The notes under the pieces: generated by a model
The model's input: only the letters and a program-made list of their open reading frames with translations
Told to the model about the DNA's origin: nothing
Database searches by the model: none
Shown here: piece after piece, positions 3,540 to 63,494 of the stretch
Layout of the letters: every line of letters begins with the position of its first letter
Position numbering within the stretch: position 1 is the stretch's first letter
Made by a program: the position numbers and the translations under genes
Origin: Histomonas meleagridis
Taxonomy: Eukaryota > Parabasalia > Tritrichomonadida > Dientamoebidae
Length of the DNA: 64,000 bases
Assembly (NCBI GenBank): GCA_020186115.1
Contig: WSYJ01000142.1
Coordinates: 992,001 to 1,056,000 of the forward strand
Direction of reading: 5' to 3'

Positions 3540-4580
3540 ATGATGAAATCACAGATAAAAGACTATGTTCACGACTTAAAATCTCTTCAAAAAATAATAA
3601 GGAATCTTAATATATTAAATATCAAAGAATCATTTGAATCAATTATGAAATTATATGATTTTACTTATCTATTCACTTTTAACTTAATGCTAGTTCAAAT
3701 AATTTACTCATTTTATATATCAAAGTCTAAGGATATTGATATCCTTCTTAAATTCATTGAAGCAATAGAAGAGAAAAACAAAATAACAGACTTTTTATAT
3801 AACATGAAGCATTTGTATTTTTAATAGAAAGACTTCTTTTTAATTTATGTAAACATTACAAATCATCATTTAAAGGTACTGTGAAGCAGTCATATAATTC
3901 CAAAAAAATGATCTCTTTAAATATCTTTATGAAAATAATATTGAATCAAATTGTAACTCGTTTAAATTAGTCAAACAATGTATTCTATCCATAATTATAA
4001 AATATAATCAATATTTAAAAAAAAATGTTGTTCCTTATATGAATGGATTTCATTTGTTACAGCAGAATGCGGTAACTTATATATTTTTAAGCAATTCATT
4101 AGGGAAAAAATACTTCATAAAGACGTTTTAATTTTTAATAATAAATTGATGGGATATAGAACTGATAGAACATATTCTTGTGCAAAAAGGAATTGATGTT
4201 AATATACAAAATAATTATTTATTATATTTTATGTTAATTTTTATAACTTAATGTTTCAAAATAATATTCCAATTATTTGAAACAATCCTTATAATGGCTG
4301 CTAAATGTGGTCACATAAATGTAGTGAAATTACTTCTGAAACAAGACGGAGTTGATATAAAAACTAAAGATATTAAATTGTTTTATTTCGTATTTATTAT
4401 GAGAATTTAATGTTTCAAAGAAATATTCGGAAATCTATTTGAAACACTAATCAATCTTGCATCCTTAATTCGCCTAAACTTAGACTTAAACTATACGAAT
4501 TGCATAGAATTACTTATCGATAAAGATGTATTTTTTCACTATAAATATAACAAAACTTCATCAAATCCATACAAATAAAC
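3540..4580 (+). pseudogene. Decayed DUF3447-type ankyrin gene
   Basis: The first 94 codons (3540-3824) are a frame that resembles the N-terminal region of the ankyrin protein at 60210: a helix pair ending in IKESFESIMKLYDF...FTFNL, then ILLKFIEAIEEKNK. It stops at 3824. Downstream, out-of-frame fragments continue in the same gene order: an NDIF-like piece near 3903-3950 (FKYLYENNIESN), then ankyrin cores at about 4170-4215 (QKGIDVNIQN), 4282-4365 (TILIMAAKCGHINVVKLLLKQDG) and 4443 onward. Large parts are missing and frames change, so this is a relic. The ankyrin pieces are separated by the same AT-rich linker family (TTTCAAAATAATATT...TTATTTGAAACA) seen between the repeats at 61-63.5 kb, but here the spacing between cores is 162 rather than 170 bp. 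Confidence 0.65.
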
Positions 4581-7900: not shown

Positions 7901-10083
7901 AATTACAAAATTTAGATGTGTTAGCTACTTATTCACTTAATGGAATTGATCCTATTCCATCAGAATTACTTACGAAAGTTATCGATCTTTTATTATTAGA
8001 TCTTTCTAAAAAGAAAATAAACAAAAAAGTTGGAAATAATGAAATTACGCATAATGAAATATATCATTATATTTCAACATTAAGTGTTTTCTTAGGTAAA
8101 CAAATTGGTAAATTAGAAAACTTACAATCAGTATGTAAACTTTCCGAAAAGATTATTAATGATCGAGTTCAATCACCAGATGATAATTTGTTTAATTCAA
8201 TATATCAATCACAAGATATTCAACAAATACTTCTATGTATGACATCGCCATTATTTATTAATTCAACAAACATAATAAAAGAAAGTATTATATCTAAAAA
8301 TTATAAAGTTTCAAAAACTATAATACCGAAATTAATGAATGAAATTATAAAAGGTAAAAATGTTCGAGATGAATTTTTAGTTTCATTAGCACAATTAGCA
8401 ATTCGACCTGAAATTGTAGGTTATCCAGCTCCACAATATTCGTTTGATTTCTTGAATTTAGTATCAAAGAAATCATTAAATGCAAAACGTTCAGTTATAG
8501 CGAACTTAATATATTATGTACAATTAATTTATTCTATTAATGATCAATTACCCGAAAATATATTCCCAATATTAGAATCAAGTTATAAAGGTAATACTGA
8601 TGAAATTTGTGCATTCTTTTGTTTATTACTTAATCAACGAGTTGCGTTAATGACAATGCAAAACAATCCAGGATTATCAGATCTATGTAATCCTGATGTA
8701 TTACCAAGATCATTTATAGCAACTGCTATTAATAAATCACAAGAAGTCGAAATCAAAAAGGAATTAGGTTCATTATATGAAAAGATCATTGATACATTTA
8801 TCTTGTCTGGATTAGTATCTAACAAAGCGTATATCGTCGAATTAGTAGTTAGTATATTAGCTGAGACTAATTTGTCATCTAATTTACCAACACGTATTTC
8901 ACCATTTATAGTCAAAGGACTTCAAACACTTTCTCCAAGTGAAAACAATCAAACATTTATTAAGTTCGCAACATTATTCACTGCTAAACATAAAGAATTT
9001 AATGAATGTTTCGAAGCATATGAAAAGTCATTCGAAATCCTTAAGAATTATTCATATACAATATGTCGTGAAAATGCACGACGCACTAAGAACAAACAAA
9101 AGCCTGAAGCGTATAAGAAACTTCAACAAATATATCAAAATATTGAAAGCACTATCGAAACACCATTTATAGAAAACCAAGAAAAAGAAGAAATGCAAAG
9201 TTTATCACAATTTTGTCGAAGACTTTCAACTGTAATGTCGAAATATTATCCTGCAGTATCATTACAAAGTTATCTTGAGCTTGAAGCATTAGTTTCAATT
9301 TTAGGTGATGAACATATGGAGAAATGTGTGATATCAACGAATAAAGAAGATTCACTTACTGAGTTAATCGAAGTGTTTTGTAATCATAAGGAATTTGTTA
9401 AACATTTACCAGCAGTAATAAAAACAATGTTTAACAACCTTAGGCTTTCATTTAATGAAAAGCATACATTACAACTGACGAAGCTTCCGAAAGAACTACA
9501 AGATGCTGATGAGCTTGCATCTCTTGTTAGTCCTTATGTCCTCGAGCATTTGCCTCAATGTAGTGATGAAGAACTTGTTGAAATAATGTCCAAACTTGGA
9601 ATATTCGGCGAACCAAAAGTATACGTTGCAAGAGGATTCGCTGCACGTGCTAACCCATATGGAAGCGCAGTACCACCAATGGCACCACTAATGGCATCAT
9701 CACGACCAATGATGGAATCAAGAGAATACTGTATGGATGAAGTAGAATGTTGCGCGGATGGAATTGAGGAATGCAATGGTGGCGGCGCGCAAATGACATT
9801 ATATTCTGCGCCAATGATGATGAAATCAGCCAAACCAACAATAATGTTTAAGGGAGGCGATGACATTACATTAAGTAGTGAATCTGTTGATTCAAGCGAC
9901 TTTTCTGATGATGTTTCCAGCAGTAGTTCTGATGAAGAGAAAGGACATAAGGCAAAACATCATGCTAAGCTAGAAGATGATGATAAAGACTTTGTAGAGG
10001 AAGAAGAAGACGATGAACCTGAAGAAGAAGAAGACATTGAAGATGAAGAAAATGATGATGACTTAATGGATCTTTGGAATTAA
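4962..10083 (+). CDS. Large alpha-helical protein with acidic C-terminus, function unknown; 5' end needs a frameshift
   Basis: The main frame is open from 4966 to the stop at 10081-10083 (about 1700 aa) but has no ATG for its first ~250 codons. Coding continues upstream of 5068 (FKGYFSEVIKKKDWDTLIS), so the true start lies further left. An ATG at 4962 opens another frame (MTNSFTSHNQNGSTTP, then TGA); losing one base in the CCC at 5007-5009 would join it to the main frame. The protein is almost entirely helical and Leu/Ile/Asn/Lys-rich, like HEAT/ARM-type repeat scaffolds, but I recognise no motif. The last ~130 residues differ: a Met/Pro/Gly segment with Cys (ARGFAARANPYGSAVPP, ECCADGIEEC), then Ser/Asp-rich and a long Glu/Asp run ending DLMDLWN. 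The stop overlaps TAAA. A nuclear-transport or ubiquitin-ligase scaffold would fit the shape, but this is not supported further. Confidence 0.7.
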
Positions 10084-10348
10084 ATATTTCCACTATTAAT
10101 AGTAAAATAACCAACAAAACATTTCATTCGTTTATTCCTTTTTCGTTTGCCCAAAATGAAAACAATTTAAAGTGTACAAATAATTCATTTCATGTTGAGC
10201 AAAATATGTACTTCAGCTCTTTTGGCCCAAACATTTATGAAACTGACAGCAAACTGATTTTGTTTCCATTTTTAAATTTAAAACGATGAATTCCACAGCG
10301 GTTAATGGAGTGCCCCATATAAATAATTCAAATCATGATTTTGTTTAC

Positions 10349-12193
10349 TTACTGTTCAGCAATAGCCATCAATGATGCGTAAACAGTCATAACCATTTCA
10401 GGAACATGTTCAACGATATCTTCTGGGAGTGCATAAACTGTGCCACCGAACTTACGGACCATTGACAACACGTACTTGGCGTTACGTGCCATCATCTCTG
10501 GTTCGCCTGAGCTGTCGTAGATTGACCAGTCGACTGTCTCTGGCTTGAGGACGTCGATGAGTGTCAAGATTGGCTTAGAGTCGGAGATTGCGTCGTCCTT
10601 GAACGACTTGATTTCGCACTTTCCGGCCGTCTTCTCGTTGGCCCATGCGACGATTTGCTCATCCTTGATCTTAGCGCCGCCGCCGAGCTTCTTGAATGTC
10701 TTCAAGTAGTCGTATCTCATCATTTGCCACATGACGGCTAAGATCAACTTAGTGTTTCCATCATTGATATCTGCGCCGGAGATGTTGACAACTGATAAGC
10801 CGAGTGTCTCCTTGCAGATCTTGACAACGTAGTCGTTGTTCTGGACTGCCTTGAACTTGTTCATCTTTTGTGTGCTGACTTGCTTCCAGTTGACGCATCC
10901 TGGCTCGAGCTTGTCAAGCATTTGAAGTAAGACAAGTCCGTCCTTGACGCCGTCAGCGAGGTTGGAAACGAACGGATCAACGCCGCATGAGTTCATCCAG
11001 AGGCAGAATTGGCGCTCGATACGTGTGCCTTGTGCAGCGAATAATGCTTCATCGAGTTGTGCAAGTTCGGCTTCGGATAATGGCTCAAGTCCTGGACGTG
11101 TGTTGAAGATGTTGGCAACAAATGCAAGGTTAAGCTTTGGATGGCCGCGGACAATTTCACGTGGTGTAACGAACTTGCGGCATTCGATCTTGTCGGCTTC
11201 TTGAAGCATTAATTCGGCACGTTCGGAAAGATCGCTCTCGCGCATTGGGGCCATTGTGCAGCATTCTGGTGCGATTTGCTTGAGAACTGTGGTGAGGATT
11301 TCGGAGTCGGAGAGATCCTTTGTGAAGTTGGTTGCACGACGTTGACTTCCAGCATTTTCAAGATGATAGTTCAACCAACGAAGAAGAATTTCTTCTGGCT
11401 TAAGCTTGAGGAGATCTTCGATTGTTTCTCCTGGCTTGAGAAGACGGAAAAGTTCTGGGTGAACTGTAAGTTGGATATCTTTGAGAAGTGATTCACGGAT
11501 AAGTTGCCATGTAAGACCAAGAACAAGATGTGGAACACCTTCGCGGATATCGTGTGGACCAATGTTAACTGTTGACATACCAATGGACTTGGCGGAATTG
11601 ATGGCAAGTGTGCAGTTTTCAAGGATCTTGTATTGGTTAAGTTTTGGTGGAAGAGCAATAACTTTGTCATGGATTGTGTCTGGAGCAGCAAGGTTAACAA
11701 GCTTGCACATAAGGATACCATCTTGAACAGCTGTGAAGAGAGCATCACCTTCTGGATCAATTGGAAGGATATGTTGAAGGGCTGGATCTTCACCAAGTTC
11801 TTGGTTAAGATAGTTAACAAAACCAGTAACTTCTTCTTGTGGATAAGCGTGTTCACCACGGGCACCAGCTGCCTTGATAAGGTTTTGTTGCTTCTTAAGA
11901 CCTTCGCTAAGTTTGGATGATGCACCACTTTCCTTTTCTTTGATGAAGATTGTAAGGAATTCACCAAAGTCAATGAGGCCATCACCATCGATATCTACCT
12001 CTTCAATGTACTTCTTAACTTCATCACGTGTAGCTGGAACTTGGATGGATTTGAAGAGAGCCATGATTTCGGTGATTCCTAATTTTCCAGAATCATCAGC
12101 ATCAAGACTGTTGAAGTGCTGGGAATACATGAGAATTTCATCAGGTGTGAGTTGTGGGTACTTTGGGATGTACTCGTTTGCGTTAACAGGCAT
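10349..12193 (-). CDS. Fimbrin/plastin: actin-bundling protein with two EF-hands and four CH domains
   Basis: 614 aa, close to the usual ~620-630 aa of plastins. Residues ~15-90 hold two EF-hands; both calcium loops are well formed (DADDSGKLGITE and DIDGDGLIDFGE). From ~120 to the end there are four calponin-homology domains arranged as two actin-binding modules, with typical segments such as DGILMCKLVNLAAPDTI, HLVLGLTWQLIR, LADGVKDGLVLLQMLD, NTKLILAVMWQMMR and the final PEMVMTVYASLMAIAEQ. By family it cross-links actin filaments into bundles under calcium control. The start is set by the only Met before the EF-hands and by a TCACT initiator 7 nt upstream. The 3' two-thirds of the gene uses many G/C-ending codons, unlike the AT-ending codons of its neighbours, which suggests high expression. 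Divergent from the BEACH gene. Confidence 0.95.
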   Translation of the reverse strand: MPVNANEYIPKYPQLTPDEILMYSQHFNSLDADDSGKLGITEIMALFKSIQVPATRDEVKKYIEEVDIDGDGLIDFGEFLTIFIKEKESGASSKLSEGLKKQQNLIKAAGARGEHAYPQEEVTGFVNYLNQELGEDPALQHILPIDPEGDALFTAVQDGILMCKLVNLAAPDTIHDKVIALPPKLNQYKILENCTLAINSAKSIGMSTVNIGPHDIREGVPHLVLGLTWQLIRESLLKDIQLTVHPELFRLLKPGETIEDLLKLKPEEILLRWLNYHLENAGSQRRATNFTKDLSDSEILTTVLKQIAPECCTMAPMRESDLSERAELMLQEADKIECRKFVTPREIVRGHPKLNLAFVANIFNTRPGLEPLSEAELAQLDEALFAAQGTRIERQFCLWMNSCGVDPFVSNLADGVKDGLVLLQMLDKLEPGCVNWKQVSTQKMNKFKAVQNNDYVVKICKETLGLSVVNISGADINDGNTKLILAVMWQMMRYDYLKTFKKLGGGAKIKDEQIVAWANEKTAGKCEIKSFKDDAISDSKPILTLIDVLKPETVDWSIYDSSGEPEMMARNAKYVLSMVRKFGGTVYALPEDIVEHVPEMVMTVYASLMAIAEQ

Positions 12194-20774: not shown

Positions 20775-23700
20775 ATGTTACCACATTTCCCCTGTCCATT
20801 ATACCCATTATGCAATTTTTCAACAAATCAAATTTCGAATCTCAATCAACATATTCACATTTTTCATAACGATAATCTACCATTCAAAGAGCCATTTAAT
20901 GGTCACATTAGTTTATATTTTCCATTTTTAAATATTACACCAAAAAACACAAGCCAACAACCACCTATCGTTACATTCCCTCAACCGTTAGTTTGTCCTT
21001 TTTGCAAGGCTTATACAAAACTGACTTCAAATATAGATCTTTTTCTTCATTTATATTCTCATTTTAATCCAGAGAATTCAAATCCACATGTGGCTTCTCT
21101 TCTTTCTTCTGGTTGCTTCTTTGAAAGCTTTTTAAATTTTGTTAAATATAAGAATTCTCCTCCTAGACTTTTTGAAATTGAAGAAATCCCTATTACAGAT
21201 AATACGATTATTCTTAAAAAAGGGAATCATTATGATGATAAATCCCCTAATAACCCTCCTTGGATAATTATTACGGCAGATCATCAAATTGATGATCGAT
21301 CGCCGATTCTTATGAGCGATGGTGGAATCATATGTTCGCCTGGACAAATTATGATTAACAATGGTATAATTCAAAATGAGACTGAAGAATATAAAATCGT
21401 ACCTTCTTCTCTAAATGATATTTTCCCAAGAATCAATGGAGAGAAACCAAATCAATTACCTTTTATTCTTTCTCAACTAAATAAGTATCCACCTCAACTC
21501 CAACATTTCTTGTTGATGATATTCAAAATTTTACATTTATTGAATATTAATATAAATATCCCGCCAATAAGAGATATCCCTATTAAACTTCCAATTCCCA
21601 GAATTATTGAAGTGGAGTATGATATAGAAATTCCCAAAATCATTCCACAATTTACTGACTACTCATTAGAGATTCCAGTTTTAAATCCAATCCAAAATCG
21701 ACTTGATTGGATGCTCCCTACTCTTAATCCAATTCCTCGTAATCTCGACTGGGAGGTGCCTGTAATTAATCCTGTTGGCAAGAACTTTGATATGGTTTTA
21801 CCAATCATCAACACTTCATTCAATGAAGTTGATGTGGATATCACAATCCCGAATGTTAAAACAAATGTATGCGAAGTAATGAACAATATCGCAAATGTTT
21901 CAACCAACATCCAAGAAGTGGAAGCGAACATTACAATTCCTAATGTTAAAACAAATGTATATGAAGTCACAAACAATATTCCAAATGTTTCTACAAATAT
22001 CAAAGAAGTGGAAGCGAACATTACAATTCCTAATGTTAGAACAAATGTATATGAAGTTACAAACAATATTCCAAATGTTTCTACAAATATCAAAGAAGTG
22101 GAAGCAAACATTACTATTCCTAATGTCAAGACTAATATTCAAGAAGTAGTATTCGAAATACTCGTCCCAAAATATGTTCCTAAGGAAATTTTGATTCCGA
22201 TCGATAATCAAGGAACAAATAAGGAACCAGAAAACAGTGAACAAACGAAAAGGAACACCACAGTAAATGACATAATACAATCAAACAATGGTAGAAAATA
22301 CCCGGATTCTATTATTATAAATAGTGAAGACAATGATGACCCCGATCCATCAAACCCACAAAAAGACATTGAAGAGGATTCTGATTCTGATCCACGACCA
22401 GAACATTTACTTCATGACCTTCAAAATGTCAAAAACTTTGATGATCTGGGATCGGTATATTACAAATGGGAAGATCTTCTGGTAAATCCACTAATTTGGG
22501 GAGTTAATATAAATCCAATAGATAATCCGATCATGTGTACTGTCATGCTCACTGGCATCTGGCCTGGGTTGGGTATTTTTATATGCCCTGAATGCATGAA
22601 TTTCTCTGCGAATTGTTTTACAAAATTACGAAATCACATGATAACCACTCATGGGGAACCACCTAAAGGAAATATTCTCCACGCATTAATAGGGAAAATC
22701 GCTAATAGACTTCCCTATTGGATAATTCAACGTGAAGATACAATCACTAAATCAGCATCCTATAATATATATAATTGCCCTGAACCTGAATGTGAGTTCT
22801 TTACAACTACAAAAGAAAATCTCCATTCACATATAGATAAACATAAAGAACTTAAAAATAAAATAAAGAATTTAGGAATGTTCTGGGGTACAATAGTACA
22901 TTGGGCAGCGCATAATAAACTTGTAAAACCATCTGATATAATGAAGAAACTTAAAGGTCATGCATGCCCCGAATGCAAAGATTTCTTATCTGGGGCACTA
23001 TTCGGATTTTCTCATCATATAGTTCAACACGAAAATTACAGAAAAGAAGGAATTCAAAGACCATGTGCAATCAAAGCGAAATTAACTCCAATGCTCATAT
23101 GCGAAGATGACGAAGAAAATTATGAGTTAATTTCAGAGTTATTGCATCCTTCGAATAATAATTCTGATGTTCCTAAAGATGATGAGAAAATTGTCGAAAT
23201 CTCAGAAAATAATAATGAATCGACTCATACTACCAGTGAAAATGAAGATAATTTAATTATTAATGATGAAATCTCTGATAATGCATCTAGGACTCAAATA
23301 TTAGATAATGTTGATAAAGATGAACTTGCTAACAAAGCTGTAAAATGGCTAGTGAAATGTGAGCAAGAAGAAGAAAATATAATTTCATTCCCACGTTTAA
23401 CTGAGAAATTAAGGAAAATTATTTATAAGCCAATTAAAAATTTATTCGAGGATAAGATTAATAAATTATTGGATAAATTCATTTTCGAACCAATTGATGA
23501 AAGGGATTGGATTATTAATCAAGGCATCTTATCAAAAATTAATTTATTAATTAGAAGAACAATTCGTGTTTCTTTGAAAATCCCATATAATTATATGAAA
23601 CAGAATGCTAAAAGAAATAGAAATGAAGAATATAATCGTTCAAAATTAGCAGCTCAGAGAATCCTTAAACTTAGTGATCTTATTGATTTATTAATGGATT

Positions 23701-34436: not shown

Positions 34437-34519
34437 TATAATAATAATAATAAAAAATCAGATTGATGAATTGCTGTTTTGTTGATTCTTTAAATGGAAT
34501 CTGAGAAGTTGAAAAGAAC

Positions 34520-34703
34520 AAATTTTAAAGAATCTTTGCATATTAATCAAATTTTAAAGAATCATTGTATCAGATAATAATTTTAAAGAATCATTGTATC
34601 AGATAATAATTTTAAAGAATCATTGCATATTAATCAAATTTTAAAGAATCATTGTGTCTTAATCTAAGTTTTAAGGAATCATTGCATATTAATCAAATTT
34701 GTC
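34520..34703 (+). repeat. Tandem ~30-bp AT-rich repeat after the V-ATPase gene
   Basis: Six or so copies of a ~29-31 bp unit with core TTTTAAAGAATCATTG, alternating between two variant tails, CATATTAATCAAA and TATCAGATAATAA. The two adjacent TATCAGATAATAA copies are identical. No coding potential. Confidence 0.85.
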
Positions 34704-52089: not shown

Positions 52090-52625
52090 ACGGACACATG
52101 CATGGCAAAAAATATTCACTTTTGCTTACACCATTTTTATATGCATTACACAAAAGTTGTGCGCTTGAATTCAATAAGTATACATGATGATCTTCATATT
52201 ATTTTTAGAATTTATGGAAGTAAATATGCTCCTACACTTTCTGAGTTTTATATAGCACTTCTTGTGTCTCTAAATTTGGGTGTACAGAAATTGTTAAATT
52301 ACTTCTAAACAAAAAGGAATTGATTTTAATGCTAAAGATATATATATGATATTTATTTTATGAATTTGATATTTCAAAACAATATTTGAAAATTATATGA
52401 ATTATTTAATACAGTACTTATGTATGCATCTGAAGAAGGATATATAGAAGTAGTTAAATTACTTCTTGAACATAAAGGAATTTATATTAATGTTAAAGGC
52501 AAAATTTATACGTTTTAATTGAAATTTATATTAATAATTTCGTATTTCAGAATAATATTTGGAATTTATTGAAATTATTTAAATCAGCACTGAACAAAGC
52601 ATCATCAAAAGGTTTTACAATGATA
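52090..52625 (+). pseudogene. Ankyrin-repeat relic with the same AT-rich linkers
   Basis: Three ankyrin cores survive: ~52252-52340 (with a 1-base deletion after KLLL), 52411-52491 (TVLMYASEEGYIEVVKLLLE, open) and 52584 onward (SALNKASSK, truncated). The linkers between them contain TTTCAAAACAATATTTGAAAATTAT and TTTCAGAATAATATTTGGAA, the same family as at 61-63.5 kb; the distance between the second and third cores is 173 bp. No N-terminal domain is present. It ends against the katanin gene upstream region. Confidence 0.7.
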
Positions 52626-60209: not shown

Positions 60210-61499
60210 ATGAGTGTTCCAACACCAAATCCTCGTCGTACATTAAGGAAACCAAAAAATCCTGGTACCAAATCTAATATCCAATCTGAATACTTGCAAA
60301 AAATGCATGTTCTGGAAAAATTAATATTTGATTTAACTAATGAAAACTTTTTTTTCACAGTTCAGCAAACAATGAAATTATTTGATTCAAATTTCCCATA
60401 TTCTTTTAACGTTGTTATTAGTATTTTAATTTTCTCTGTATTTTTTTCTCAAAAGAATTCAAGTGAATTTTATTTAGAGTATCTAAAATCAATTGAAAAA
60501 GAAGAAGAACAAATAAATAAAAACAATCCCAAAATCATTAAAATTTTTGCAAAACATATATCACAAATTAAAGTACAAGAAGCATACAATCTCATTGAAG
60601 AAATGATATCACAAAATTTAATCGATGAAAAAATCATTAAAAATATTCGAACTCAATATTTTGCGCATCGAAGATCAGAAGAAGAACTATCAAAGAATGA
60701 TTGGGAACTTCATAAAAAGTTAATTAAAGAAGGAGTTAATCCAAATGAAATCGCAAAAATTATACGAAATGATGAAATAGAAAAACTTCAAGAAATGTCA
60801 TCACAACCAGAATTTGATTATAACCAGAAAATCAAACCATCACTTTATGAAAAATGTTCATTTATTAATCATCATGTTACATTAATTGATTATGCAGCAT
60901 TTTTTTCTTCTATTAAATGTTTTAAATATTTACTTATGAATGGAGCTAAACCAGAAAACACAGGTAAATATGCAGTTGCTGGTGGAAATTTAGAGATAAT
61001 TCATTTATGTGAACAAAATCATTCATCTTTCAAAGGATCTTTTGATGCTGCTATTAAATTCCATCGAAATGATATCTTTCATTATATTTATGAAAATAAT
61101 TTAGAAAAATTAGGAGAATATAAGGAAGTAAAGCTATCAATATTTGGAAAAGAAAATATAAACCAATTTGGTTATTTTGATAAATATCCAGATAAACCAC
61201 AATCGATTAACGAGTTAGTAAAAGTTTGTAATTTCAGTGGGAATTATGAAATTCTTTCTTTTTTATTAGAAGAGGATATAAATATCAATGATTCGATTTT
61301 AAGGGAAACTGCACGAATTGGTAATTTATATCTTGTTAAATATTATCTTCAAAATAATAAATTGAAAACAGACATTTTATTCTTTGCATTAGCATCAGGA
61401 AATGCTGAACTTGTTAAATTTGTTCTTGAAAAAAATCCAATTGATATATATGAAAAAAATTTTTATTTAATTTTAATAAATTTTGTTTTAATGATTTGA
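60210..61499 (+). CDS. DUF3447-type ankyrin protein, first open frame
   Basis: 429 aa until TGA 61497-61499. Residues ~1-130 are helical (the N-terminal region of this trichomonad family). Residues ~155-300 include the DUF3447 signature: SFINHHVTLIDYAAFFSS, LLMNGAKPENTGKYAVAGGN, LEIIHLCEQNH, FDAAIKFHRNDIFHYI. Ankyrin-type repeats start at ~330: LVKVCNFSGNYEILSFLL, ILRETARIGNLYLVKYYLQ, ILFFALASGNAELVKFVLE. The frame then enters the first AT-rich linker (KNFYLILINFVLMI) and stops. Further ankyrin units continue downstream at a fixed 170-bp pitch to a proper stop at 63494, so the true product may be larger (see the next entry). These proteins are presumed scaffold or adaptor proteins; none of this family has an assigned function that I can cite. 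Confidence 0.8.
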   Translation: MSVPTPNPRRTLRKPKNPGTKSNIQSEYLQKMHVLEKLIFDLTNENFFFTVQQTMKLFDSNFPYSFNVVISILIFSVFFSQKNSSEFYLEYLKSIEKEEEQINKNNPKIIKIFAKHISQIKVQEAYNLIEEMISQNLIDEKIIKNIRTQYFAHRRSEEELSKNDWELHKKLIKEGVNPNEIAKIIRNDEIEKLQEMSSQPEFDYNQKIKPSLYEKCSFINHHVTLIDYAAFFSSIKCFKYLLMNGAKPENTGKYAVAGGNLEIIHLCEQNHSSFKGSFDAAIKFHRNDIFHYIYENNLEKLGEYKEVKLSIFGKENINQFGYFDKYPDKPQSINELVKVCNFSGNYEILSFLLEEDININDSILRETARIGNLYLVKYYLQNNKLKTDILFFALASGNAELVKFVLEKNPIDIYEKNFYLILINFVLMI

Positions 61500-63494
61500 T
61501 ATATAAAAATAATATTTGGAAATTATTTAAAATATTCGAAACACCACTTATATTTGCATCTTCATTAGGTAACACTGAAGTAGTTAAATTACTTGTTGGA
61601 TATAAAAAAATTAATGTTAATTGTACTAATTTTAATTTGTTTCATTCAGAATTTGTTGAATTGATTTTATATTTCAAAAGTATAATTAAAATTTGCTTAA
61701 AATATTTGACACGCCTTTGATTGCAGCAACTAAAAATAATTGTACTGAAGTCAATAATATCCTTATTGAACAAAAAGGAATCATTATTAACTCTAGAAAT
61801 ATTTTATCACTTTTTATTGTGTTAATTTTAATAATTTAAAGTTTCAAATTTTCATAAGGAAATTATATAATTTATTTAAAACAGCATTAATTTGTGCATC
61901 ACAAAATGGTTACACAGATATTGTTAAATTACTTATTAAACAAGAAGCAATAGACATCAAAATTAAAGATATTTGTTTGTTTTATTTAACGTTTATCAAG
62001 AAAAATTTTAATTTTTATGAAATTTTTGGAAATTATTTAAATTATTTGAAGATGCTCTTATGAAAGCATCGAAAAATAATCATATTGAAATAGTGAAATT
62101 ACTTCTTGAACAAAAAGACATCGACATTAATTCAAAAAATGTTTTTTTATTATAGACAATGTTTATATCAAGAAATTATTGTTTCAAAACAATATTTGGA
62201 AATTATTTAATTTGTTTTATACATCACTTATATTTGCATTGGAAGAACTTCATATTGAAATTATAAAATTACTGCTTAAACAAAAAGGAATTGATATTAA
62301 TGTTAAAACTATTTATTTATTTTGTATAATGAACATTTAAATATTTTTATGTATCAAAATTTTAATTGATTTTTATTTTAATTATATAGAACACCACTTA
62401 TTTTTGCAACTTCTAAAGGGAATACAGAAATAGTTAAATTACTTCTCGATCAAAAAGGAATTGATATTAATGCTAAAGATATTATCATATTTTATAAAAA
62501 GTTTATTTTAAGATTTTGATATTTTAAAATGATGTTTGGGGACTATTTACATTATTTTGGTCAGCATTCTTATTTGCAGCAGAAAATAGTTACTTTAAAA
62601 TAATTGAATTACTTATTGCACAAAAAGGTATTGATATTAATATCAAAAATATTTATTTATGTCATTTAATATTCATCTTAATAATTTTATATTTCATAAT
62701 AATATATGGAAATTATTTAAGTTATTTCGAACTCCATTAATATTTGCATGTGAAAATGGTAATATTGAATTAGTGAATTTACTTCTTAAACAAGAAGGAA
62801 TTGATATTAATGCGAAAACTATTTATTTTTTGTGTTTAATATTTCTTTTATTTAGTTATTGTTACAAAATAACATATGGAAATTGTTCAAATTATTTTAT
62901 ACAGCACTTACATATGCAATTAAAAAAAATCTCTATGATATTGTTAAAATATTACTTGAGCAAAAAGGTATTGATATTAATTCTAAAAATAATTATTTGT
63001 TTTGTTTAATATTTTATTTAAATATATGAAATTTCATTAAAATATATGGTATTTAATAAAAATATTTGACACAGGACTTATAATAGCAACTAAAAATGAT
63101 AATATAAAAATAGTTAAATTACTTCTTGATCAAAAAGGAATAGATATCAATGCAAAAAATATTTTTTTATTTTGTTTGAGGTTTATTTTTAATGTTAGAA
63201 GTTTCCAAATATTATTTGGAAATTATTATTAAAACTTTGTACTGCACTTATGTGGGCATCTGAGAAAAATTGTGTAAAAATATGCGAATTACTTCTTGAA
63301 CAAAAAGGAATTGAAATAAATATAAGAAATATTTATATATTTCATAAAATACTTATTTCAATAATTTGAATTTCTTAAACAATGATTGGAAATCATTTAA
63401 AATATTTAAAACAGCATATGGATTAGCATTGTCAAATTGTAATGACAGTATAATTACATTAATTAAAGAAAAAAAGAAGGCACTAGGATTATAA
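61371..63494 (+). repeat. Array of 13 ankyrin units at exactly 170-bp pitch, separated by 89-nt frame-breaking linkers
   Basis: Core starts lie at 61371, 61541, 61711, 61881, 62051, 62221, 62391, 62561, 62731, 62901, 63071, 63241 and 63411. Each core is 27 codons with no stop or indel and follows T-P/A-L-x-x-A-x-x-x-G/N-x-x-E-I-V-K-L-L-L-x-Q-K-G-I-D-I-N. The twelve 89-nt linkers share a family sequence: AAAAATATTTATTTATTTTG..., TTTCAAAATAATATTTGGAA, ATTATTTAAATTATTTGAA. 170 is not a multiple of 3, and most linkers stop the upstream frame. The last core ends ITLIKEKKKALGL then TAA overlapping TAAA, a usual C-terminus for this family. By hand, the pair 62391/62731 differs at 6, 3 and 11 sites, and the pair 62221/63071 at 10, 3 and 10 sites, in codon positions 1, 2 and 3. 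Confidence 0.85.

Follow-up and report, generated by a model that had tools for sequence, protein, structure and literature searches.

Ankyrin-repeat arrays of Histomonas meleagridis with frame-breaking linkers as candidate non-canonical introns

Introduction

How can a gene keep its protein repeats intact when each repeat is followed by a segment that breaks the reading frame? The question is raised by an ankyrin gene at positions 60210-63494 of a 64,000-nucleotide stretch of the Histomonas meleagridis genome (C78:992001-1056000; this whole stretch is termed the window hereafter). An earlier examination of the letters alone (the sequence-only reading) had described the gene as ankyrin cores separated by linkers of constant length, and had considered uniform introns, ribosome hopping, or spread as a dead unit. 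As far as the available part of PMC8529796 tells, H. meleagridis carries 573 introns in the virulent strain and 638 in the other of two strains, at most one per gene, and the genes were called by AUGUSTUS trained on a transcriptome. One ankyrin-domain protein is named among the H. meleagridis proteins in the accessible portion of PMC10063853, and no report of the linker sequences was found among the titles and abstracts returned by our literature searches. Here, we examine the array in the window and its relatives across the genome (43.28 Mb), and propose that the linkers are probably non-canonical introns removed from RNA.

Results

The array and its family

Thirteen cores of 27 codons each start at 61371 + 170k (k = 0 to 12) and none of them contains a stop, in agreement with the sequence-only reading; as it had also stated, the last core (63411) closes with a proper stop, TAA at 63492-63494. 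The ankyrin gene with 170-bp units had been extended over the whole of 60210-63494: the array is real but begins at 61371, and 60210-61370 is ordinary coding sequence, the stretch 60210-61463 being open and sharing the frame with the first core. The repeats matched the Pfam Ank profile and have a 33-codon unit, identifying them as ankyrin. Twelve of the 13 window cores scored 33 to 102 bits with the core profile, and the terminal core, scoring -18, was assigned by register and frame only; the top scores across three shuffled windows, with the same kind of profile, were -30 to -37. Tandem Repeats Finder reported 11.8 copies of a 170-bp period with 64% matches, and nucleotide identity between the window cores averaged 62% (range 37-80%). 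The 170-bp pitch shifts the frame by 2 per unit. Among 11 window units, seven bore a stop in the downstream frame, while upstream-frame stops fell at offsets 90-122 in two units and beyond in five (offsets are numbered from the ACN codon opening each core). Of the linker stops pointed out previously, TAG at 62153 and TAA at 62338 do lie in the upstream frame, but TGA at 62518 falls in the third frame, where it is irrelevant.

What had been taken for a single gene turned out to belong to a family. A DNA search with the array (40 of 1662 candidates scored) gave 89 matches, which were grouped into at least 39 places besides the window. We retrieved stretches for 26 of these 39 places, for five loci reached via proteins (L035-L039) and for 12 loci hand-picked by an N-terminal match alone. 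The N-terminal region matched about 95 scored places, and all of the 12 loci picked by it harbored an array of at least 4 cores. The exact 26-mer ATATTTGGAAATTATTTAAATTATTT, derived from the 3' part of the linker, occurred in 1169 genome copies against none for its reversed control. Among the first 100 listed sites of this 26-mer, 42 of the 60 within-cluster gaps were whole multiples of 170; extrapolating from the 18 clusters found on C1 gives about 570 arrays genome-wide. As ATATTTGGAAATTATTTAAATTATTT was carried by 141 of 467 units in our first set (L009 included) and by 3 of 82 in the N-terminus-chosen set, scaling by these fractions yields about 3,900 or 32,000 linkers, with a wide error.

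The main unit set comprised 42 loci and the window, namely 514 units, among which 402 were distinct 170-bp units; 11 gaps above 200 bp were left out, and the counts exclude locus L009, in which 4 of 39 units have core stops. The pitch was exactly 170 bp in 420 of the 514 units. Others measured 153 (32 units), 173 (15), 171 (10), 150 (8), 156 (6), 168 (5), 172 (5), 167 (4), 130 (2) and 176 bp (2), with one unit each of 113, 162, 164, 177 and 190 bp. The absence of linker indels, regarded as odd in the sequence-only reading, holds for the window array but not genome-wide, where 94 of the 514 units (L009 excluded) depart from 170 bp, some of them by 1-2 nt.

Where coding stops and resumes

We compared observed stops with those expected from column frequencies, the columns being taken as independent. 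In the 402 distinct units, the cores held 2 stops against 212 expected, whereas the linkers of the same units came near expectation in both the upstream (343 against 386) and the downstream frame (254 against 292). The ratio rather than the exact count is the evidence here, since the columns were assumed independent and two hypervariable codons dominate the expectation. Stops were present in the linkers of 250 and 164 units in the two relevant frames, and in both frames in 110. The contrast sets in at the linker borders: codon 93, the first of the linker, had 19 stops against 24.0 expected and codon 161, the last, had 23 against 22.4, while codon 167, just before the next core, had none against 47.7. 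In a subset of 77 units from the 12 N-terminus loci and five diverged loci, the corresponding figures were 1 against 43 for the core, 15 against 12.3 for codon 161 and 0 against 16.6 for codon 167. Only three stop-bearing cores were found among all 514 units (in L016, in a 153-bp unit, and in L034 and L062).

The codon preceding the core encodes a hypervariable residue (K, E, N, R, W, Y, D) yet is never a stop, implying that codon 167 is translated. On the other side, offsets 66-89 showed 5 single changes to stop where 30 were expected, and 522 amino-acid changes where 738 were, a depletion from which we infer that coding continues close to offset 89. Within the linkers, synonymous, amino-acid and stop changes had no core-sized contrast (first 267 units; rates from the linker itself). 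Codons 87, 90 and 164 can hardly mutate to a stop and are uninformative in these counts, so that the exact codon at the 5' end is not fixed. The shortest cut clearing every stop from offset 81 on was 71 nt, which leaves 99 nt, or one ankyrin repeat (345 units). In the 402 units this cut failed once (L062, with a stop at codon 84), and a 77-nt cut cleared L062 as well. A 68-nt cut failed in 13 of 345 and 20 of 402 units, and a 2-nt shift at the best common position left a stop in 115 of 345. The sequence-only estimate of about 68-71 nt skipped per repeat is thereby borne out and sharpened to at least 71 nt. Altogether, as judged from the stop counts, protein-level selection acts on the cores where they stand but not on the linkers, as the sequence-only reading had supposed for the cores; coding ends at or before offset 92 and resumes at 164 or 167. 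Flanks selected as protein around an interior that is not are what an intervening sequence would leave, whatever the mechanism by which it is skipped before or during translation.

Two other readings of the coding pattern were rejected. The frame-keeping units of 150, 153 and 156 bp gave the idea that the linker is a translated spacer containing a 17- or 20-nt intron or a frameshift. However, the linkers hold nearly as many stops as expected in either frame, more than 100 of 345 units retain a stop after a 17- or 20-nt cut, and several of the 150-, 153- and 156-bp units hold stops themselves. Independent translation of each core was discarded as the consensus has no conserved start codon.

Signals in the linkers and canonical introns

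The linkers are poor in known splice signals. GT at offsets 84-95 was found in 42 of 345 units, AG at 160-169 in 37, and both, in slightly wider intervals, in 9, arguing against GT-AG introns. The sequence-only reading had seen no GTAYGT-type trichomonad signals, and their rarity was confirmed: among 467 units, GTATGT occurred in 4, CTAAC in 1 and ACACAG in none. Nor did the linkers conform to the U12-type pattern of an RTATCCTT donor with an AC or AG acceptor, as ATTT and GTTT were commonest at the 5' border and no AC or AG was conserved at the inferred 3' border.

Instead, two other elements recur. RTTT stood at offset 90 in 51 of the 77 diverged units, and GG at 147-148, within TTTGGAATTT, in 66 of the 77 and in 349 of the 402 units overall; the two GG columns carried 2.9 and 2.7 bits in the diverged units, against a mean of 0.43 at third positions of the core. 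The distance from GG to the next core was exactly 23 nt in 383 of 513 units and was kept at pitches of 153 (24 of 32), 171 (7 of 10) and 173 bp (10 of 15), so changes in length lie mostly 5' of the TTTGGAATTT element. We also observed that RTTT is repeated every 20 nt, at linker offsets 90, 110 and 130, and that units of 150, 190 and 130 bp are 20 or 40 nt off the 170-bp length, which would suit a linker made of 20-nt modules. The linkers folded no better than shuffled sequences (60 units, mean z of +0.19) and gave no consensus structure. No covariation was detected in the linker, the strongest column couplings being located in the core. Excision at direct repeats was considered and rejected, as the two flanking copies of TTATTT in the consensus are separated by 69 nt and their use would break the frame.

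Introns of the GTATGT...CTAACACACAG kind seem, on the other hand, to exist elsewhere in this genome. Eleven CTAACACACAG sites were found (control, 4), 6 of which are preceded, at a distance of 65 to 113 nt, by GTATGTTT, GTATGTTC or GTATGTAC, and a strict pattern returned three candidate intron-like sequences with GTATGTTT...TAACACACAG, of 65, 71 and 71 nt. As to the spliceosomal RNAs, U2 had two genome matches above the cut-off, one end base different, both with the usual GTAGTA, and U6 had one match just under the cut-off. No genome match was obtained for U12 or U6atac, in searches that matched no control genome either and did not extend to U11 and U4atac.

Array ends, N-terminal regions and decayed copies

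By our rule, the last core was closed by a stop within at most 31 codons in 21 of 45 arrays, 3 of which were not ankyrin-like, leaving 18; among cores other than the last, 10 of 579 were closed by a stop (L009 is in both sets). Some of the arrays with no recognized end are cut by the edge of the retrieved stretch. In L038, which like L063 lies on the minus strand of C120, the last core opens a 502-codon frame rich in S, T and P; as an ATG occurs by chance three codons upstream of the core, this frame may be an independent gene.

According to our reading of 33 array rows, the N-terminal DUF3447 region was intact in one frame in 18, broken in 8 (L009, L011, L013, L016, L018, L021 minus, L022 and L031), absent in 3, partial in 3 and outside the stretch in 1. 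Two arrays, L010 (1428-2441, plus strand) and L014 (5387-6853, minus strand), stand beside N-terminal regions devoid of DUF3447, one of them GTPase-like (MMR_HSR1; L010). The borders of these regions, EGIDANENI and EGIEINKEV, are like the family border. The junction in L037 retains a short in-frame remnant of a linker.

L009 combines a broken N-terminal region with cores bearing 1-nt indels. We rejected it as a neutral control, as these indels recur at the same positions and may be polishing errors. The window itself contains a decayed member at 3540-4450, in which the frame opened by ATG 3540 is first interrupted by a stop at 3822; core 4123 holds two stops, core 4282 being open. Dead copies therefore do gain core stops in this genome. 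Across the family, such stops have not accumulated in the cores (3 of 514), more being present in L009 (4 of 39 units) and in the member at 3540-4450. A further array fragment lies beside a poly-C run at 52280-52620 and comprises a single strong core at 52411 and part of a linker containing TATTTGGAATTTATT.

Proteins in databases

The annotated H. meleagridis protein P0013 matched the genome at 100%. The same N-terminal region is found in proteins from other contigs, whose identity to the query does not exceed 59%. The only one of these proteins searched against this genome, P0007, had a best match of 60%, and is thus regarded as coming from another organism. It provides the sole core-core join among the proteins examined, at a junction that is linker-free in DNA too (like L035). 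P0015 reads on through an in-frame stretch with FQNNIWGFLKLFKTAL. P0031, from another source, has between two ankyrin repeats (residues 600-718) a hydrophobic in-frame stretch with YGI resembling the GG linker, possibly the same linker class in a more distant relative; a search with the P0031 tail matched itself only.

Predicted gene structure and other features of the window

The borders suggested by the stop counts divide the plus strand of 60210-63494 as follows. Predicted exon 1 (60210-61463), an open reading frame matching Pfam DUF3447 and Ank_2 without stops, covers the N-terminal DUF3447/irregular ankyrin region and the first core (61371-61463). Predicted ankyrin exons 2 to 12, each stop-free and of 99 nt (33 codons), occupy 61535-61633, 61705-61803, 61875-61973, 62045-62143, 62215-62313, 62385-62483, 62555-62653, 62725-62823, 62895-62993, 63065-63163 and 63235-63333. 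Alternating with them are putative intervening sequences 1 to 12, 71 nt each, at 61464-61534, 61634-61704, 61804-61874, 61974-62044, 62144-62214 (the fifth, with the TAG named above), 62314-62384 (the sixth, with the TAA), 62484-62554, 62654-62724, 62824-62894, 62994-63064, 63164-63234 and 63334-63404. Terminal exon 13 (63405-63494), placed by register and frame, would comprise a shortened, divergent ankyrin core and the TAA stop.

Elsewhere in the window, a 29-bp unit is repeated 6.2 times at 34519-34700 (29 is 2 modulo 3 and would break the frame too), and a 90-bp tandem repeat of 3.2 copies (91%) lies at 21843-22126. The GC content is 43% at 10001-12000 and 21-35% in the remaining 2-kb stretches.

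Discussion

The reading that we favor is that the linkers are non-canonical introns, which we consider probable on the basis of the DNA. The gene in the window would then be live but discontinuous, with an N-terminal exon, eleven 99-nt one-repeat exons and a terminal exon joined after twelve 71-nt introns without GT-AG borders are cut from the transcript. Recognition might involve a 5' site, AT|RTTT being its commonest form, and the 3'-side element TTTGGAATTT, whose GG lies 23 nt upstream of the ACN codon that opens the next core and 16-17 nt upstream of the presumed 3' border. The arrays may have grown by tandem duplication of the exon and intron as a unit, which would keep the frame since each exon has 33 codons and the intron is in phase 0. 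That linker length varies, by 1-2 nt included, is in line with this reading, as introns may do so. The fixed place of GG, the closed last cores and the similar border of the L010 and L014 N-terminal regions also speak for it, as do the indels in the L009 cores beside a broken N-terminal region, unless they are polishing errors.

The same coding pattern would arise if the linkers stayed in the mRNA and the ribosome hopped 71-77 nt from core to core, and the fixed distance of 16-17 nt between GG and the point of resumption is of the order of a ribosome half-footprint. Nevertheless, we regard such translational bypassing as improbable. Its take-off and landing codons would be unmatched (codon 90 is mostly ATT, 161 mostly TTA or ATA, and 164 TTT), the linkers lack structure, and twelve or more serial hops would demand near-perfect efficiency; bypassing is not known to occur in any nuclear genome, which counts against it as well. 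Ribosome hopping, one of the mechanisms raised by the sequence-only reading, thus gains no support, and excision from RNA is preferred because it needs unusual sites only. Alternatively, the standard spliceosome could accept sites that have diverged strongly, as a relaxed or additional class served by the same U2 and U6. The U2 and U6 matches and the GTATGT-type candidates of 65, 71 and 71 nt suggest that ordinary parts are at hand, but the linkers bear neither end signal, a branch-like CTAAC is nearly absent from them, and TTTGGAATTT does not evidently pair up with GUAGUA as a match. We hold this to be unlikely, and it is a variant of the proposal of non-canonical introns rather than its denial.

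Two further explanations do without a repeat protein made from the whole array. Equal length combined with diverged sequence is typical of satellites, and broken copies (8 of 33 rows) and the decayed member at 3540-4450 would suit a decaying, satellite-like pseudogene array of 170-bp units. Such decay is very hard to reconcile with the near-total lack of core stops beside linkers near expectation in the same units, and with terminal cores properly closed in 18 of 45 arrays; the dead spreading unit of the sequence-only reading is likewise a poor fit to this contrast. It is still harder to credit that only exon 1 is expressed, with the cores as silent donor cassettes recombined into it. Exon 1 is open and ends in or at the first linker, and some core positions are hypervariable, as an archive of variants might be. 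An archive would hold stops, however, unless its cores had recently been copied from the expressed one, and the window cores are stop-free at only 62% mean identity; a copying tract would bring the linkers along as well.

Several observations weigh against introns. Placed on the genome, the annotated P0013 terminates at the first linker, P0002, P0003, P0005, P0008, P0009, P0011 and P0014 end where the first linker would begin, and none of the database proteins examined joins family cores across a removed linker. The 'ena' contigs, if they are transcripts, speak against splicing. Where the linker has been lost in DNA, in L035 and in P0007 (other source), reading continues with a 34-residue repeat, and our 33-codon unit is one residue shorter than these linker-free junctions. 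Known splice signals are rare in the linkers, as given above. Seven of the 8 rows with a broken N-terminus still have stop-free 170-bp cores, and therefore not every copy need be live. As regards the counts themselves, codons 12 and 21 account for 125 of the 177 core stops expected in one unit set, and frameshifted cores may be overlooked because the cores were located by profile.

Known systems offer partial parallels. In vertebrate ankyrin genes, 99-bp exons encode one 33-residue repeat each, as proposed here, but their introns are GT-AG, long and unequal in length. Alpha-type satellites share a unit of about 170 bp and diverged copies; half of the unit is under protein-level selection in the arrays studied here. 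Untranslated stretches within reading frames are also found in the byps of Magnusiomyces mitochondria and in T4 gene 60; compared with what is described of these, the linkers have neither matched take-off and landing codons nor structure, and reside in a nuclear genome. In the part of PMC12316389 available to us, trichomonad spliceosomal introns are likewise short sequences between exons, and the GT-AG signals are strict in Trichomonas vaginalis; the linkers, whose removal we deduce from DNA, lack GT-AG, GTATGT and the fused ACTAACACACAG given there. Of the three trichomonad-type candidates of 56-86 nt in this genome, two measure 71 nt, the same length as the putative intervening sequences. 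Introners (PMC9860276) and the non-canonical introns of Amoebophrya (PMC7789003), as far as the accessible text covers them, are comparable in being many similar intervening sequences, some of them non-canonical. The linkers differ in that tandem duplication within a single repeat family seems to have spread them together with the exon.

More broadly, and tentatively, Histomonas and probably a related parabasalid might possess a separate class of introns, near-uniform and numbering in the thousands, with an RTTT 5' site and TGGA at a fixed distance from the 3' border. A machinery distinct from the ordinary spliceosome would remove them, or the ribosome would hop over them, and the whole family would be cut short in annotation. 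If the linkers are introns, this genome would hold thousands of them without GT-AG, many per gene, and many multi-repeat ankyrin proteins would be missing or shortened in the annotation. Filtering of RNA-seq junctions by canonical motifs, as applied to T. vaginalis in the consulted portion of PMC12316389, would drop such introns as artefacts. The arrays would then offer a large set of naturally occurring mutations in a possible splice signal.

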